Shown here piece after piece: positions 47,499 to 53,118 of a stretch of 64,000 nucleotides of DNA. This DNA is from Mucilaginibacter sp. UR6-11 (GTDB lineage: Bacteria > Bacteroidota > Bacteroidia > Sphingobacteriales > Sphingobacteriaceae): NCBI RefSeq assembly GCF_020880695.1, contig NZ_JAJIWO010000002.1, positions 310,001 to 374,000 on the forward strand. The letters are read 5' to 3'. A model generated the notes under the pieces. It did not search any database. It was given only the letters and a program-made list of their open reading frames with translations, and was not told where the DNA came from. The position numbers and the translations under genes were made by a program. Each line of letters begins with the position of its first letter. Position 1 is the stretch's first letter.

Positions 47499-48293
47499 TT
47501 ATTCGCCGCCGCCGCTATGGTCATGCACTTTTTCCTCGCGGAAAAGCTTGGCGCTGAAATAGTCGTTATTCATGCGGCTGATGTTGGTCAGCGTGATTTC
47601 TTTAGGGCATTCAGCCTCGCAGGCGCCGGTGTTGGTGCAGTTACCAAAGCCTTCTTCGTCCATTTGGGCTACCATGCTTTGTACGCGGCTCCAGCGCTCG
47701 GGCTGGCCCTGGGGCAACATGCCCAGCTGCGATACTTTGGCCGATACGAACAACATAGCCGAAGCGTTTTTACAAGCTGCCACGCAGGCGCCGCAACCGA
47801 TACAGGTGGCCGAGTTGAAAGCCTCGTCGGCAATAACCTTAGGGATGGGGATGATATTGGCATCGGGCACACCACCGGTATTTACCGATACGTAACCGCC
47901 GGCCTGCTGGATCCTGTCAAACGCTGCACGGTCGACCGCCAGGTCTTTGATAACCGGGAAAGCTGCTGCGCGCCACGGCTCGATGGTAATGGTTTCGCCG
48001 TCATGAAAGCTGCGCATGTGCAGCTGGCAGGTAGTAATGGCGCGTTTTGGTCCATGCGGACGGCCGTTGATATATAACGAGCACATACCGCAAATGCCTT
48101 CGCGGCAGTCGTGGTCAAAATGGATGGGCTCATCCCCTTTAAGGGAAAGGCTTTCATTCACTACATCCAGCATTTCTAAAAATGACATATCCGGCGAGAT
48201 ATTCTCGGCCTTGTAAGTCACCATTTTCCCGCTGCTGTTAGCGTCTTTTTGTCTCCACACCTTAAGTGTCAGATTCATGTTTCCGTCGCTCAT
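47499..48293 (-). CDS. sdhB: succinate dehydrogenase/fumarate reductase iron-sulfur subunit
   Basis: 264 residues. The plant-type ferredoxin cysteines are in CREGICGMC and the following CQLHM. The second part has [15 protein letters not shown] and [12 protein letters not shown] for the 4Fe-4S and 3Fe-4S centres. It passes electrons from the flavoprotein to quinone through the membrane subunit. Last gene of the sdh operon; a di-iron gene separates it from sdhA. Cytoplasmic face of the inner membrane. Confidence 0.96.
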
Positions 48294-48300
48294 TTTCTTT

Positions 48301-48963
48301 TTAAATTTGAGGTGTGAGATCTGACGCCTGTGCGTCTAAAATCTCAAATTGTTCTTCACTAGTTATTACCGGCTTTTTAAGAATTCTATTTTTTTCTTTA
48401 AAGCCTTCGCAATATGTATTTGTATCTTCTATTTTAAAACCACGTTCAAGGTCAATGTCGTTTTTGCGTTTATGCTCGCCCCAGGCAAAAAACCGTTCGA
48501 AAAACGGGAGCAGTTTATTGCTTTTTATCTGTTCATAAAAGTAAACTTCGTGCTCTTTTTCCTTCAGGCTCATCTCGTACAAGATCTCATCATGCTCAGT
48601 AATACCCTGGGCATTAAAAAGCCTTTTCATCCGCACATATTCGCATACGTTACCGCTTTCTAAACTGCCGGCAAAGTAAAATGGCATAAACCAACCTATC
48701 AAATAACAACTCGCGCTTATCGTTTTACCTATAACATGATCCCTAAACTCGTACCATTTTGAAGTTGGCACGTTATACAGATCCATCATTTTCAGCACTT
48801 CGGCCCTATGATTCCACTCGTCTATCTCAATTTGTTTGATAGCCGTTTTCTCATCAGCCTTACTTACAGCACCCGCATGTCCCTGGTAAGCAAACGCCGC
48901 GGCTTTCTCGCCCGAGTATGCCTGCTTCAATAGTCTAACCAAAATAGGGTCTGTAATGGTCAT
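48301..48963 (-). CDS. Coq7-like ferritin-fold di-iron protein inside the sdh operon
   Basis: 220 residues. The di-iron signature is complete: E19 (YSGEKAA), ExxH at E49-H52 (DEWNH), E102 (SLESGN), ExxH at E135-H138 (EKEH), with spacings of 30 and 33 as in ferritin-like/Coq7 four-helix bundles. A hydrophobic stretch ([16 protein letters not shown], 84-99) suggests membrane contact, as in Coq7. It begins 3 bp after the sdhA stop and ends 7 bp before sdhB. Coq7 hydroxylates ubiquinone precursors, but this lineage uses menaquinone, so the substrate must be something else. MiaE-like or ferritin-like roles are alternatives. Confidence 0.8.
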
Positions 48964-48966
48964 TCC

Positions 48967-50901
48967 TTATTTATAGCTACGCTGTGTTAAATGAACAAAT
49001 TCAAAGTCCAGCGCTTCTTTGTGCAATTCCTCCGGCTGGTTATCACCTTTGTACTGCCATGCACCTACGAAAGCAAATACATCGTCATTACGCAGGGCCT
49101 CGCCCTCTTCGGTCTGTGATTCCAGGCGGAAGTGGCCGCCGCATGATTCTTTGCGCATCAGGGCGTCGTCAACCATTAGTTCGCCAAGCTCCAGGAAGTC
49201 GGCCACGCGGCCGGCCCTTTCCAGTGAAGCGTTTACTTCTTCGTTAGCGCCAACTACCAAAGCGTTCTTCCAGAAATCGGCACGCAGGGCCTGTATCAAC
49301 CCTTTGGCTTTGGTAAGGCCCTCTTCGGTACGTGCCATGCCGCAATATTCCCACATAATGTGGCCCAGGTCGCGGTGGTATTCGTTTACCGTTTTGGTTC
49401 CTTTTAAAGCCAGCAATGAGTTGATACGGTCAACCACGTCCTGTTTGGTTTTGGTAAAAGCAGGGTGGCTGGCGTCAACCGGTTTCGGACCGATGGTAGC
49501 CAGGTAATCGCCCAGGGTAAACGGAATAACGAAATATCCGTCAGACAGCCCCTGCATCAATGCCGAGGCGCCCAGGCGGTTTGCGCCGTGGTCGCTAAAG
49601 TTACACTCGCCCAGGGCATAAAGGCCCGGTACGTTGGTGCTTAAGTTATAATCAACCCAAAGGCCGCCCATAGTATAGTGTACGGCCGGGTAAATGCGCA
49701 TAGGTTGGGTATATGGGTCCTCATCGGTAATCTGATAGTACATATCAAACAGGTTACCGTATTTGGCGGCTACCGCATCTTTGCCCAAACGTTTAATCGC
49801 GTCAGCAAAGTCAAGGAAAACGGCAATGCCCGATCCGCCTACGCCGCGGCCATCGTCAACCATTTCTTTAGCGTTACGTGATGCCACGTCGCGCGGAACC
49901 AGGTTACCAAATGATGGATATTTGCGTTCCAGGAAATAATCGCGGTCCTCTTCAGCTACCTGTGCGGCAGTGATCTGTTTGGTGCGCAATTTCTCGGCTA
50001 CTTCTTTTGTTTTAGGCGCCCATACACGGCCGTCGTTACGTAACGACTCAGACATCAGCGTTAGCTTGCTCTGATGATCGCCGGTAACCGGGATACAGGT
50101 TGGGTGTATTTGGGTATAGCAGGGGTTGGCAAAAAACGCACCGCGTTTATGCGCACGCCAGGCCGCTGTAACGTTTGATCCGATGGCGTTGGTTGACAGG
50201 TAGAACACGTTACCATAACCGCCGGTACATAGCAGTACCGCGTGGCCGGTATGGGTATCAATTTCGCCGGTAACCAGGTTACGGGTGATGATGCCCTTGG
50301 CATGGCCGTCAACGGTAACCACGTCCAGCATTTCGCTGCGGGTATACATTTTAACCTTACCCTTGTGGATCTGGCGGTTTAATGCCGAGTAAGCGCCTAA
50401 TAATAATTGTTGTCCGGTTTGGCCACGTGCGTAAAACGTACGTGATACCTGCGAGCCACCAAATGAGCGGTTGTCCAGCAGGCCGCCGTACTCGCGGGCA
50501 AACGGTACGCCCTGCGCCACGCACTGGTCTATAATATTTACCGATACTTCGGCCAGGCGATATACGTTGCCTTCGCGGGCGCGGTAATCGCCGCCTTTAA
50601 TGGTATCATAAAATAACCGGTAAACGCTGTCGCCATCATTCTGGTAATTTTTGGCCGCATTGATACCACCCTGTGCAGCAATAGAGTGCGCACGGCGCGG
50701 GCTATCCTGGAAACAAAATGCTTTTACATTATAACCCAACTCGGCCAGCGATGCTGCTGCTGATGCACCTGCTAAACCGGTACCTACAACTATTACATCG
50801 TATTTACGCTTGTTGGCAGGGTTAACCAGCTTTAAGTTAAATTTATGCTTGCTCCATTTTTCGGCTAATGGGCCCTGCGGAATTTTAGCATCTAAACTCA
50901 T
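48967..50901 (-). CDS. sdhA: succinate dehydrogenase/fumarate reductase flavoprotein subunit
   Basis: 644 residues. [20 protein letters not shown] binds [20 protein letters not shown] carries the covalent-FAD region, HPTCIPV the active-site block, and [17 protein letters not shown] the substrate loop. This is the Bacteroidota-type SdhA, somewhat longer than the E. coli form. It oxidises succinate or reduces fumarate on the cytoplasmic side. The ferritin-like gene follows with a 3-bp gap, so all four genes of the operon are probably one transcript. Confidence 0.96.
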
Positions 50902-50987: not shown

Positions 50988-51776
50988 CTATTTACTGATA
51001 CTGTGCAGATAATAATAATACACCGGCATCAGCGCAAATCCCAGCGGGATGATCACCGCAAAGAACCAAGTGCCTATAAATTTTACTACCGGTGTGTATT
51101 TACGGTGTGTCCAGCCTAAGGTCTGGAACGCGCTCTGGAAACCATGCAGCAGGTGGAACGATAAGCTGCCCATTGCAATTACATAGATGATAACATACCA
51201 GAGGTTACTGAAACTGGCAGCCACCTTGGTGTGCAGATCCTTAACCCTGACAATCTCCTCATCATTTTCTGTGGTTGATGAATGTTCAAAGGTTGGGTCG
51301 GCAGGTGTAAAATCCGTAACGGTACGCTGGTTGGTCAGCACGTTGGTGCGGTATTCTTTAAAGCCTACGCTATCGGTAAATTTGTATTTATACCAAAAAT
51401 CGCCCATATGGATCACGATAAACAAAAACAGGATAGAACCCAGCAGCCCCATGTTTTTTGACGACCATGATGCCGGCGCCTTATTTTGCGATGCATAAGC
51501 AACCGGGCGCGCCTTGCGATTTTGAACGGTTAATATTAAGGCGTAAAGGGCGTGTACCAATATAGCCAGGTAAAGCAGGTAAGCTATCACTTCTATCGGC
51601 GGGAAATGCGTCAGGAAGTTGGCATACACATTAAAACCATAACCCTGGTCATTTTTAAACAGGAACAGGTTGCCGCCCAGGTGTACGATAATAAATGTAC
51701 ACAAAAACAAGCCTGTTAAAGCCATTATCAGCTTTTTGCCCAGCGATGAGTTAAAGGTTTGTTTAATTTCGCTCAT
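50988..51776 (-). CDS. sdhC: succinate dehydrogenase cytochrome b subunit
   Basis: 262 residues with five predicted helices, the single-subunit b558-type anchor typical of Bacteroidota and epsilon-type enzymes. KLIMALTGLFLCTFIIVHLGGNLFLF is the first helix, and further haem histidines are in VHALYAL, FIVIHMGDFW and SFHLLHGFQSAF. It holds two haems and the menaquinone site. First gene of the operon. Confidence 0.95.
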   Translation of the reverse strand: MSEIKQTFNSSLGKKLIMALTGLFLCTFIIVHLGGNLFLFKNDQGYGFNVYANFLTHFPPIEVIAYLLYLAILVHALYALILTVQNRKARPVAYASQNKAPASWSSKNMGLLGSILFLFIVIHMGDFWYKYKFTDSVGFKEYRTNVLTNQRTVTDFTPADPTFEHSSTTENDEEIVRVKDLHTKVAASFSNLWYVIIYVIAMGSLSFHLLHGFQSAFQTLGWTHRKYTPVVKFIGTWFFAVIIPLGFALMPVYYYYLHSISK

Positions 51777-51919: not shown

Positions 51920-51952
51920 TTTTGTAGCTAACTATAATTTGCAGTAATTTGG
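51920..51952 (+). promoter_or_regulatory. promoter of first TlpA-like gene
   Basis: TTTTG at 51920-51924 and TAATTTGG at 51945-51952 are 20 bp apart. The -7 box ends 23 bp before the ATG at 51976, the same distance as in the next paralogue. Confidence 0.55.
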
Positions 51953-51975
51953 CCTTATCAAAAACCTATGCCGTT

Positions 51976-53118
51976 ATGAAATACATCAGCTTTTTATTTT
52001 TACTCCTAGTATTCGCATCGTGCAAGCATATGCAGGGCGATATTGAAATTAACGGTATTGCAAAAGGTGTAACTTATGGCAATGTTATTATAAAGGATCA
52101 GGCCAATACCAATATTTTCAGGGCCGATATTGAAGCCGGCAAATTTAATATCAAGTCTTATTTACAGTATGCCGGATATTACAAAATGCTTTACGCATCA
52201 AAAGCGACGAAGGGCGGCTCGCGCGAGATCGAGGTGTACCTTGAACCCGGTACCTATACCATTGATATCAATCAGGATAAGATCAACGATTACCCGCTTA
52301 TCACTTCCTCATCTGAAACCCAGACACAATTATCAGCCTATAACAATGTGCGGGATTCGCTGAGGCACGAGGCGCGTCAAAGAGCCATCGCCATAAATAA
52401 TCAGATGAGGGGTGTAAACAGCGATAACGGCGTAAAATCAATGTCAGACCTGGATACGTTGAATAAACTGCAAACAGCCGAGTTAAAAGCTAACCAGGTT
52501 GATGAAATGAATGTTTTCAATGCCTTTATGGCTAAATATCCTGATAATGAAATTGCCGCACACCTGCTTAAGGCTTTAGATTATCAGAATGACCCGGTAG
52601 GTTATTATAAGCTTTTTCAAAAATTCAGTCCCGTTGCCAGAAACAGTGATGATGGTAAGCAGCTGGAAGTTAAACTTAAAGAACTAAGTAAACTGGCGCC
52701 CGGCAGCCCGGCCCCGGCTATTACCGGCACCACGCCTGATGGCAGGGAGCTGGATATCAAAGCCATGAAGAAGAAGATCTTTTTACTTGACTTTTGGCGG
52801 TCAAGCAATGGTTCGAGCCGGGATAATCATCAGCAAATTATAACCCAGCTGTTGCAGTTGAAGCCCAAAGGCTTTGATGTGGTTAGTATTTCTTTTGATA
52901 CCGATAAAGATAAATGGCTGGCGGCTGTAAAATCAGATAAAATGGACTGGACCCAACTATCAGATCTTAAAGGAGACGACTCGCCCAACGGCGCTACCTG
53001 GGGGATCAAAAGCATCCCGGCTTATTTCCTGTTAGATGGGGGCGGTAAGATCATAGCCCGTATTGCCGACTTTGCCGACGTACCTGCGGCGGTTGATGAA
53101 TACATGAAAAAACATTAA
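51976..53118 (+). CDS. TlpA-like lipoprotein without CxxC
   Basis: 380 residues from the ATG at 51976. A TTG start 27 bases upstream is unlikely, because MKYISFLFLLLVFASC is a complete lipoprotein signal with Cys16. Residues 20-110 match DUF4369 (IEINGIAKGVTYGNVIIKDQ). A helical linker is followed by an AhpC/TSA thioredoxin fold (APGSPAPAITGTTPDGREL, FLLDFW). The cis-Pro strand IPAYFLL is present, but the active-site WCxxC is WRSSNGSSR, so it cannot do thiol redox. It may bind a peptide or haem-like ligand, or serve as structural scaffold. Confidence 0.88.
   Translation: MKYISFLFLLLVFASCKHMQGDIEINGIAKGVTYGNVIIKDQANTNIFRADIEAGKFNIKSYLQYAGYYKMLYASKATKGGSREIEVYLEPGTYTIDINQDKINDYPLITSSSETQTQLSAYNNVRDSLRHEARQRAIAINNQMRGVNSDNGVKSMSDLDTLNKLQTAELKANQVDEMNVFNAFMAKYPDNEIAAHLLKALDYQNDPVGYYKLFQKFSPVARNSDDGKQLEVKLKELSKLAPGSPAPAITGTTPDGRELDIKAMKKKIFLLDFWRSSNGSSRDNHQQIITQLLQLKPKGFDVVSISFDTDKDKWLAAVKSDKMDWTQLSDLKGDDSPNGATWGIKSIPAYFLLDGGGKIIARIADFADVPAAVDEYMKKH

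Follow-up and report, generated by a model that had tools for sequence, protein, structure and literature searches.

The window, which is the whole 64-kb stretch of DNA from the soil bacterium Mucilaginibacter sp. UR6-11 analyzed here, contains an sdh operon on the minus strand with the 5'-to-3' order sdhC, sdhA, X, sdhB, where X is the name we use for a Coq7-type di-iron protein gene. Profile searches identified sdhC (50988..51776; a cytochrome b558-type membrane subunit of 262 aa; TIGR02046, 163 bits), sdhA (48967..50901; the flavoprotein subunit, 644 aa; NCBIfam NF005749, 1155 bits), and sdhB (47499..48293; the iron-sulfur subunit, 264 aa; NCBIfam NF005746, 434 bits), each above the cut-off of its NCBIfam model. 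X (48301..48963, minus strand; 220 aa) was recognized by its ORF, its relatives, purifying selection, and its AlphaFold model. The sdhA/X junction is TAA-GGA-ATG, with 3 bp between the genes, and AAAGAAA separates the stop codon of X (TAA) from the ATG of sdhB, a gap of 7 bp. The original prediction had placed a real ORF at exactly these distances, and its coordinates were confirmed. The sole strong terminator-like hairpin of the operon, detected by a consensus scan at 47471-47443 on the minus strand (12 pairs, 8 of them G-C, followed by a T-rich sequence), lies 3' of sdhB. Because of this location, sdhA-X-sdhB are predicted to be a likely cotranscribed unit.

The gap between X and sdhB is as short as 7 bp because the last codons of X run through an inverted repeat of the sdhA-sdhB spacer (48304..48350; 16-nt arms, found by repeat search), so that the repeat is read through and encodes the last residues of the protein. 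This repeat occurs once in the 64-kb window, and comparable arms were found in the sdhA-sdhB spacers of relatives. In the other sdh-located copies, X was separated from sdhB by about 50-226 bp, or the ORF calls overlapped. X had been described as locked between sdhA and sdhB; the spacing is right for UR6-11, but the 7-bp interval is peculiar to this genome among the sdh-located copies compared. The idea that X always lies within a spacer hairpin was also discarded; it is true of L013, and in UR6-11 the whole hairpin falls inside the 3' end of X.

The sdhA-sdhB spacers of Mucilaginibacter-like genomes were mostly either short (0-190 bp) or about 470-490 bp long. These spacers (L094-L123, and 48304-48350 in the window) often carried a degenerate inverted repeat with arms of about 20-35 nt; the repeat differed in sequence type from genome to genome, for example TAGTATCAAGTAGCTAGTATCAAG and AGATTTGAGATGTGAGAC. 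Some of the spacers of about 470-490 bp (L103, L113, L118, and L119) were bounded by repeat arms and had room for a small ORF. In L006 and L017, a 23S_rRNA_IVP (PF05635) ORF was present between X and sdhB within the sdh operon (L006:972-1325). The repeat-flanked spacers and this ORF suggest a small mobile unit. A thioredoxin-like (AhpC/TSA-looking) gene at 51949-53118 is divergent to sdhC; several relatives also have related genes beside sdhC, in some cases two in tandem.

We next compared the di-iron site of X with that of COQ7, using a human COQ7 reference sequence identical to PDB 7ssp. The ligand numbers of the original prediction (E19, E49/H52, E102, and E135/H138) were exact. On the minus strand, the ligand codons are those of E19 (48907..48909; COQ7 E60), E49 (48817..48819; COQ7 E90), H52 (48808..48810; COQ7 H93), E102 (48658..48660; COQ7 E142), E135 (48559..48561; COQ7 E178), and H138 (48550..48552; COQ7 H181). 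Two tyrosines, each seven residues after a ligand, accompany them: Y26 (48886..48888; E19+7, COQ7 Y67), assigned from the COQ7 motif as quoted in PMC9774615, and Y109 (48637..48639; E102+7, COQ7 Y149 and AOX Tyr220, the latter from PMC7904559). The prediction had let itself depend on conservation of the ligands in homologues, and all six, together with both tyrosines, were invariant in 71/71 aligned homologues; for E19-Y26 and E135/H138 this conservation is partly enforced because the segments EKAAAFAY and KEKEHEV were used as patterns in the GTDB scan, and for E49, H52, E102, and Y109, which lie outside the patterns, it is unbiased.

All 89 X copies fit the motif E-X6-Y-X22-E-X2-H-X49-E-X6-Y-X25-E-X2-H, and no match to the ligand-plus-tyrosine motif was found in 199,983 shuffled copies. 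The E. coli bacterioferritin (Bfr) used for comparison has neither the spacing of this motif nor the second Tyr. The COQ7 motif of Manicki et al., in the form in which PMC9774615 quotes it, is E-X6-Y-X22-E-X2-H-X48-E-X6-Y-X28-E-X2-H. X therefore has all eight residues of this motif, and every copy differs from it in two spacers, X49 for X48 and X25 for X28. The likeness is closer than the family spacing originally claimed for the ligands, since both active-site tyrosines also fit COQ7. The redox relay E60/H148/Y149 of COQ7 is incomplete in X: E19 and Y109 are present, and the position of His148 is occupied by Glu108, which is invariant in 71/71 homologues. Among X genes, pairwise dN was about 0.07-0.19, and dS approached or exceeded saturation. 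These results indicate that X is under strong purifying selection where it is retained.

A Tyr seven residues after the third-helix Glu is shared by X and COQ7 and also by alternative oxidase, in which Tyr220 follows Glu213 (ligands Glu123, Glu162, His165, Glu213, Glu266, and His269; PMC7904559). Alternative oxidase and PTOX are, like the protein proposed here, di-iron carboxylate proteins meeting quinol at the membrane. X might thus be a menaquinol oxidase that reduces O2 to water, a relief valve beside a menaquinol-making SDH; its co-location with sdh in one clade and its nature as a self-contained single gene of patchy presence would suit such a role. However, the AOX ligand spacing (123/162/165/213/266/269) is clearly unlike that of X, no sequence match to Pfam AOX was obtained at E values up to 1, and most X copies lie away from any dehydrogenase. 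We regard a menaquinol oxidase as improbable.

Family membership was examined with profile searches. The best Pfam match of X was COQ7 (PF03232, which covers COQ7/CLK-1, the 5-demethoxyubiquinone hydroxylase, an NADH-dependent enzyme of coenzyme Q synthesis with COQ9 as its partner), with 20.4 bits against a gathering cut-off of 23.5 (E 4e-4) and an alignment that spans residues 10-73 only. A COQ7 match at E<0.01 was obtained for 30/71 family members. When ten members were scanned singly, the others with a match scored 13.4-20.3 bits, all below the cut-off, and none of 21 family genomes yielded a protein above the COQ7 cut-off. Alignments of X with COQ7 by HMMER, hhalign, and PSSM were non-significant over the whole length, with a thin COQ7 set of three sequences (human and two atypical rhizobial plasmid copies); over helices 1-2, the comparison with COQ7 gave 9/59 identities. 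The same three methods gave no significant whole-length match between X and Bfr. Thus, of the designation "Coq7-like," the active-site layout stood but formal COQ7 membership did not: judged by the tests run, X appears COQ7-like by site geometry and is not a formal member of PF03232. The other families that had been proposed for checking, ferritin-like proteins and MiaE, are taken up below; of the Pfam families searched, COQ7 was the best but sub-threshold, and MiaE gave no match at E values up to 1.

Rubrerythrin (PF02915) showed sub-threshold local similarity, with 14.8 bits for X against a gathering score of 22.8, at most 17.4 bits in ten members, and sub-threshold matches in 16/71 members. 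X has no rubredoxin domain. A PDB sequence search with the single X protein gave no match, and a search with the family profile gave weak ferritin-like matches only. A PADLOC match to a defence system (14.4 bits, E 0.003) was judged to be due to chance, phage families gave no convincing match, and no paper on the X family was found in the literature. Because no Pfam or NCBIfam model exceeds its threshold, annotation will miss or mislabel the family.

AlphaFold modeled the window X protein as a ferritin-like four-helix bundle with a disordered tail (pLDDT 81.6) and its shorter Flavobacterium homologue L038 as a ferritin-like bundle with a pLDDT of 90.7. In the L038 model, the third helix is unbroken over 50 residues (69-118; 48610..48759 on the minus strand) and contains E102. 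Hydropathy analysis located the most hydrophobic stretch of X (residues 77-95) in this helix. The 19-residue Kyte-Doolittle maximum was 1.18 for the window X and 1.38 as the X family mean, compared with 1.56 for COQ7, which also has a hydrophobic stretch before its third-helix Glu, and 0.61 for Bfr. The hydrophobic third helix is possibly a site of membrane or lipid contact. Foldseek and VIA-align identified YciE, YciF, mini-bacterioferritin, and bacterioferritins as the nearest overall folds to the X model, with Z about 16 (Z 16 for both 9qq4 and 3ogh). Human COQ7 was among the Foldseek matches (TM 0.59/0.66) and outside the best 50 VIA-align matches; many ferritins, YciE/YciF, and mini-bacterioferritin matched the X fold at least as well as COQ7. 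The arrangement that defines the ferritin-like di-iron superfamily, a four-helix bundle with E, ExxH, E, ExxH, was found in the X models combined with the invariant ligands. The modeled fold places X in this superfamily and does not single out COQ7, since neither Foldseek nor VIA-align distinguishes COQ7 from ferritins; its absence from the best 50 VIA-align matches does not tell against COQ7 either.

These structural neighbors and the sub-threshold Rubrerythrin matches raise the alternative that X is a soluble ferritin-like stress protein of the rubrerythrin, YciE/YciF, or mini-bacterioferritin type, which would reduce peroxide or store or oxidize iron and thereby aid cells with a ROS-leaking SDH. 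The proximity of X to FNR, Fe-S genes, or SDH in some lineages could be read in the same way. Nevertheless, neither a rubredoxin domain nor a Rubrerythrin match over the cut-off was found in X, its ligand spacing and second Tyr are unlike Bfr, the only ferritin compared in sequence, and its third helix is the more hydrophobic. Since, in addition, most X neighbors are not stress genes, we consider a stress protein unlikely.

The distribution of X was then investigated. Counting the UR6-11 genome in each set, X was found in 4/60 relatives searched, 7/300 genomes of the order, and 2/392 genomes of the phylum. The GTDB scan yielded 214 relatives in contigs, of which 80 were kept; by their titles, all of these belong to Bacteroidota, including Mucilaginibacter, Flavobacterium, Chitinophagaceae, Cytophagaceae, Chryseolinea, and others. 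No relatives were found in viral contigs or in plasmids. As far as these searches show, X is a narrow family with a patchy, chromosomal distribution. Across 86 genomes with X, the upstream neighbors fell into 43 families, the commonest being SdhA (8) and FNR (8), and no conserved neighbor indicating a substrate was found. X lay beside sdhA in 8/86 genomes and elsewhere in the remaining 78.

The order sdhA-X-sdhB was present in at least eight diverged Mucilaginibacter-like genomes, so that the insertion, whose restriction to one strain would have told against the original prediction, is not unique to UR6-11. The sdh-located copies formed one clade (support 100/100). On the sdhA tree, the presence and absence of X requires at least six changes (gains or losses), and a single holder clade was rejected (p-AU 7e-6). 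The simplest reading is one gain at the sdh site followed by repeated loss, and transfer among species may also have occurred. The maintenance of X between sdhA and sdhB in these diverged genomes of one clade and its probable cotranscription, with the 3-bp spacing and the terminator-like hairpin only after sdhB, would be expected if X acted on SDH or its quinone site, either as a Complex II subunit or as a dedicated modifier. Such a subunit should be constantly present in sdh operons, but 27 of the 30 sdhA-sdhB loci of the genus that were fetched lack X and 3 contain it. SDH thus occurs without X in most of the genus, X has been lost repeatedly, X is located away from sdhA in 78/86 of the genomes that carry it, and X behaves as a guest in another operon as well. 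The role as a modifier of Complex II suggested by the original prediction therefore fell, with most homologues elsewhere, most close relatives having sdhA-sdhB without X, and further copies in a flavobacterial Fe-S/ferredoxin operon; it is the least supported of the explanations and very improbable. The sdh position is uninformative on function and is not evidence for a Complex II role.

In Flavobacterium, the gene order was mrp-nifU-FNR-X, with ferredoxin close on the 3' side in 5/8 cases, and X often overlapped FNR by 1 bp. Profile and motif analysis showed that this FNR is TrxR-like without CxxC and that the ferredoxin is of the 2Fe-2S type. FNR and ferredoxin were ruled out as dedicated partners of X, as the same mrp-nifU-FNR-ferredoxin operon exists without X in relatives. 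Because both this operon and sdhA-sdhB occur without X in relatives, we conclude that X is a guest in core operons. The flavobacterial position between FNR and a 2Fe-2S ferredoxin would nonetheless provide a ready electron supply, and a COQ7-type site suits O2-dependent hydroxylation generally. X may accordingly hydroxylate a non-quinone substrate, such as tRNA (as in MiaE), a carotenoid, a fatty acid, or a sulfonolipid. With neither a match to MiaE or another hydroxylase family in Pfam at E values up to 1 nor a consistent lipid, pigment, or RNA neighbor, we regard this as distinctly unlikely.

The quinone of the host was assessed from its biosynthetic genes. In the UR6-11 genome and nine others, VitK2_biosynth (MqnA/MqnD-type) proteins were detected over the cut-off, one of them weakly, and no MenB over the cut-off was found in the same ten genomes. 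The gene content thus points to a host with menaquinone (futalosine route) and no COQ7 over the cut-off, and the earlier description of a menaquinone-only host held. Within the genus, genomes with and without X are alike in their menaquinone genes; the patchiness of X among menaquinone users shows that none of the essential quinone steps requires it.

These results indicate that the X family is a real, well-conserved, and undescribed variant of COQ7-type di-iron enzymes. It shares with COQ7/CLK-1 four Glu, two His, two Tyr, a near-identical spacing, and a four-helix bundle, but differs in the sub-threshold Pfam score, little identity outside the site, Glu108 for His148, another C-terminal part, and a host that makes menaquinone, not ubiquinone. 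Our preferred explanation, to which we give a little less than an even chance, is that X encodes a self-contained di-iron monooxygenase, optional for its hosts and probably in contact with the membrane, whose substrate is a (naphtho)quinone or another lipid and whose gene hitchhikes in core operons. The four-helix bundle would bind two irons, which would activate O2. Through its long, hydrophobic third helix, the protein would contact the membrane and admit a lipid-like substrate, and X would hydroxylate or otherwise oxidize a quinone or another isoprenoid or lipid. As menaquinone is the host quinone, the simplest substrate would be a menaquinone-type naphthoquinone. The electron source may be NADH or the quinol pool, with the substrate quinone relaying the electrons as it does in COQ7; alternatively, reduced ferredoxin may supply them. 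In COQ7, the quinone substrate mediates reduction of the enzyme by NADH (PMC7615680; PMC9774615). A self-contained, substrate-reduced enzyme of this kind would suit a gene that moves by itself and functions in many settings. The seat between sdhA and sdhB would give X steady expression and translation with a core respiratory operon. Against a di-iron monooxygenase of this type stand the sub-threshold Pfam score, the non-significant whole-length comparisons with COQ7, a fold that resembles ferritins at least as closely, the lack of a conserved neighbor indicating a substrate, Glu108 for His148, the C-terminal part unlike that of COQ7, and the patchy presence among menaquinone users.

COQ7-type hydroxylases are known as ubiquinone enzymes, and X keeps the same active-site grammar in menaquinone-only bacteria, which points either to an undescribed modification of a quinone or lipid in aerobic Bacteroidota or to COQ7 geometry having been put independently to other chemical use. 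A bolder form of the monooxygenase explanation, which we consider rather doubtful, is that X is the first quinone-ring hydroxylase/oxidase for menaquinone-type naphthoquinones, a COQ7-type di-iron enzyme, sporadic in aerobic Bacteroidota, making an undescribed hydroxylated or demethylmenaquinone-derived quinone that tunes the respiratory pool. The repeated slipping of X into core operons is also a warning against inferring function from operon position alone.

Several further arrangements of X were observed. In a sister genus (L008, L009, and L011), X follows a gene with an NlpE-C domain and faces a VitK2_biosynth (MqnD-type) menaquinone gene. A tie between X and the futalosine pathway, considered from this neighbor, was rejected as a general rule, as genomes of the genus without X have the same genes and other lineages do not have the neighbor. 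In L052 and L080, X directly follows the isoprenoid gene GcpE/IspG and overlaps its end. In L005, a partial second copy of the C-terminal part of X is located about 2 kb downstream of the complete gene (1501-1677; G015 C70:14598-14774) and is a duplication remnant.
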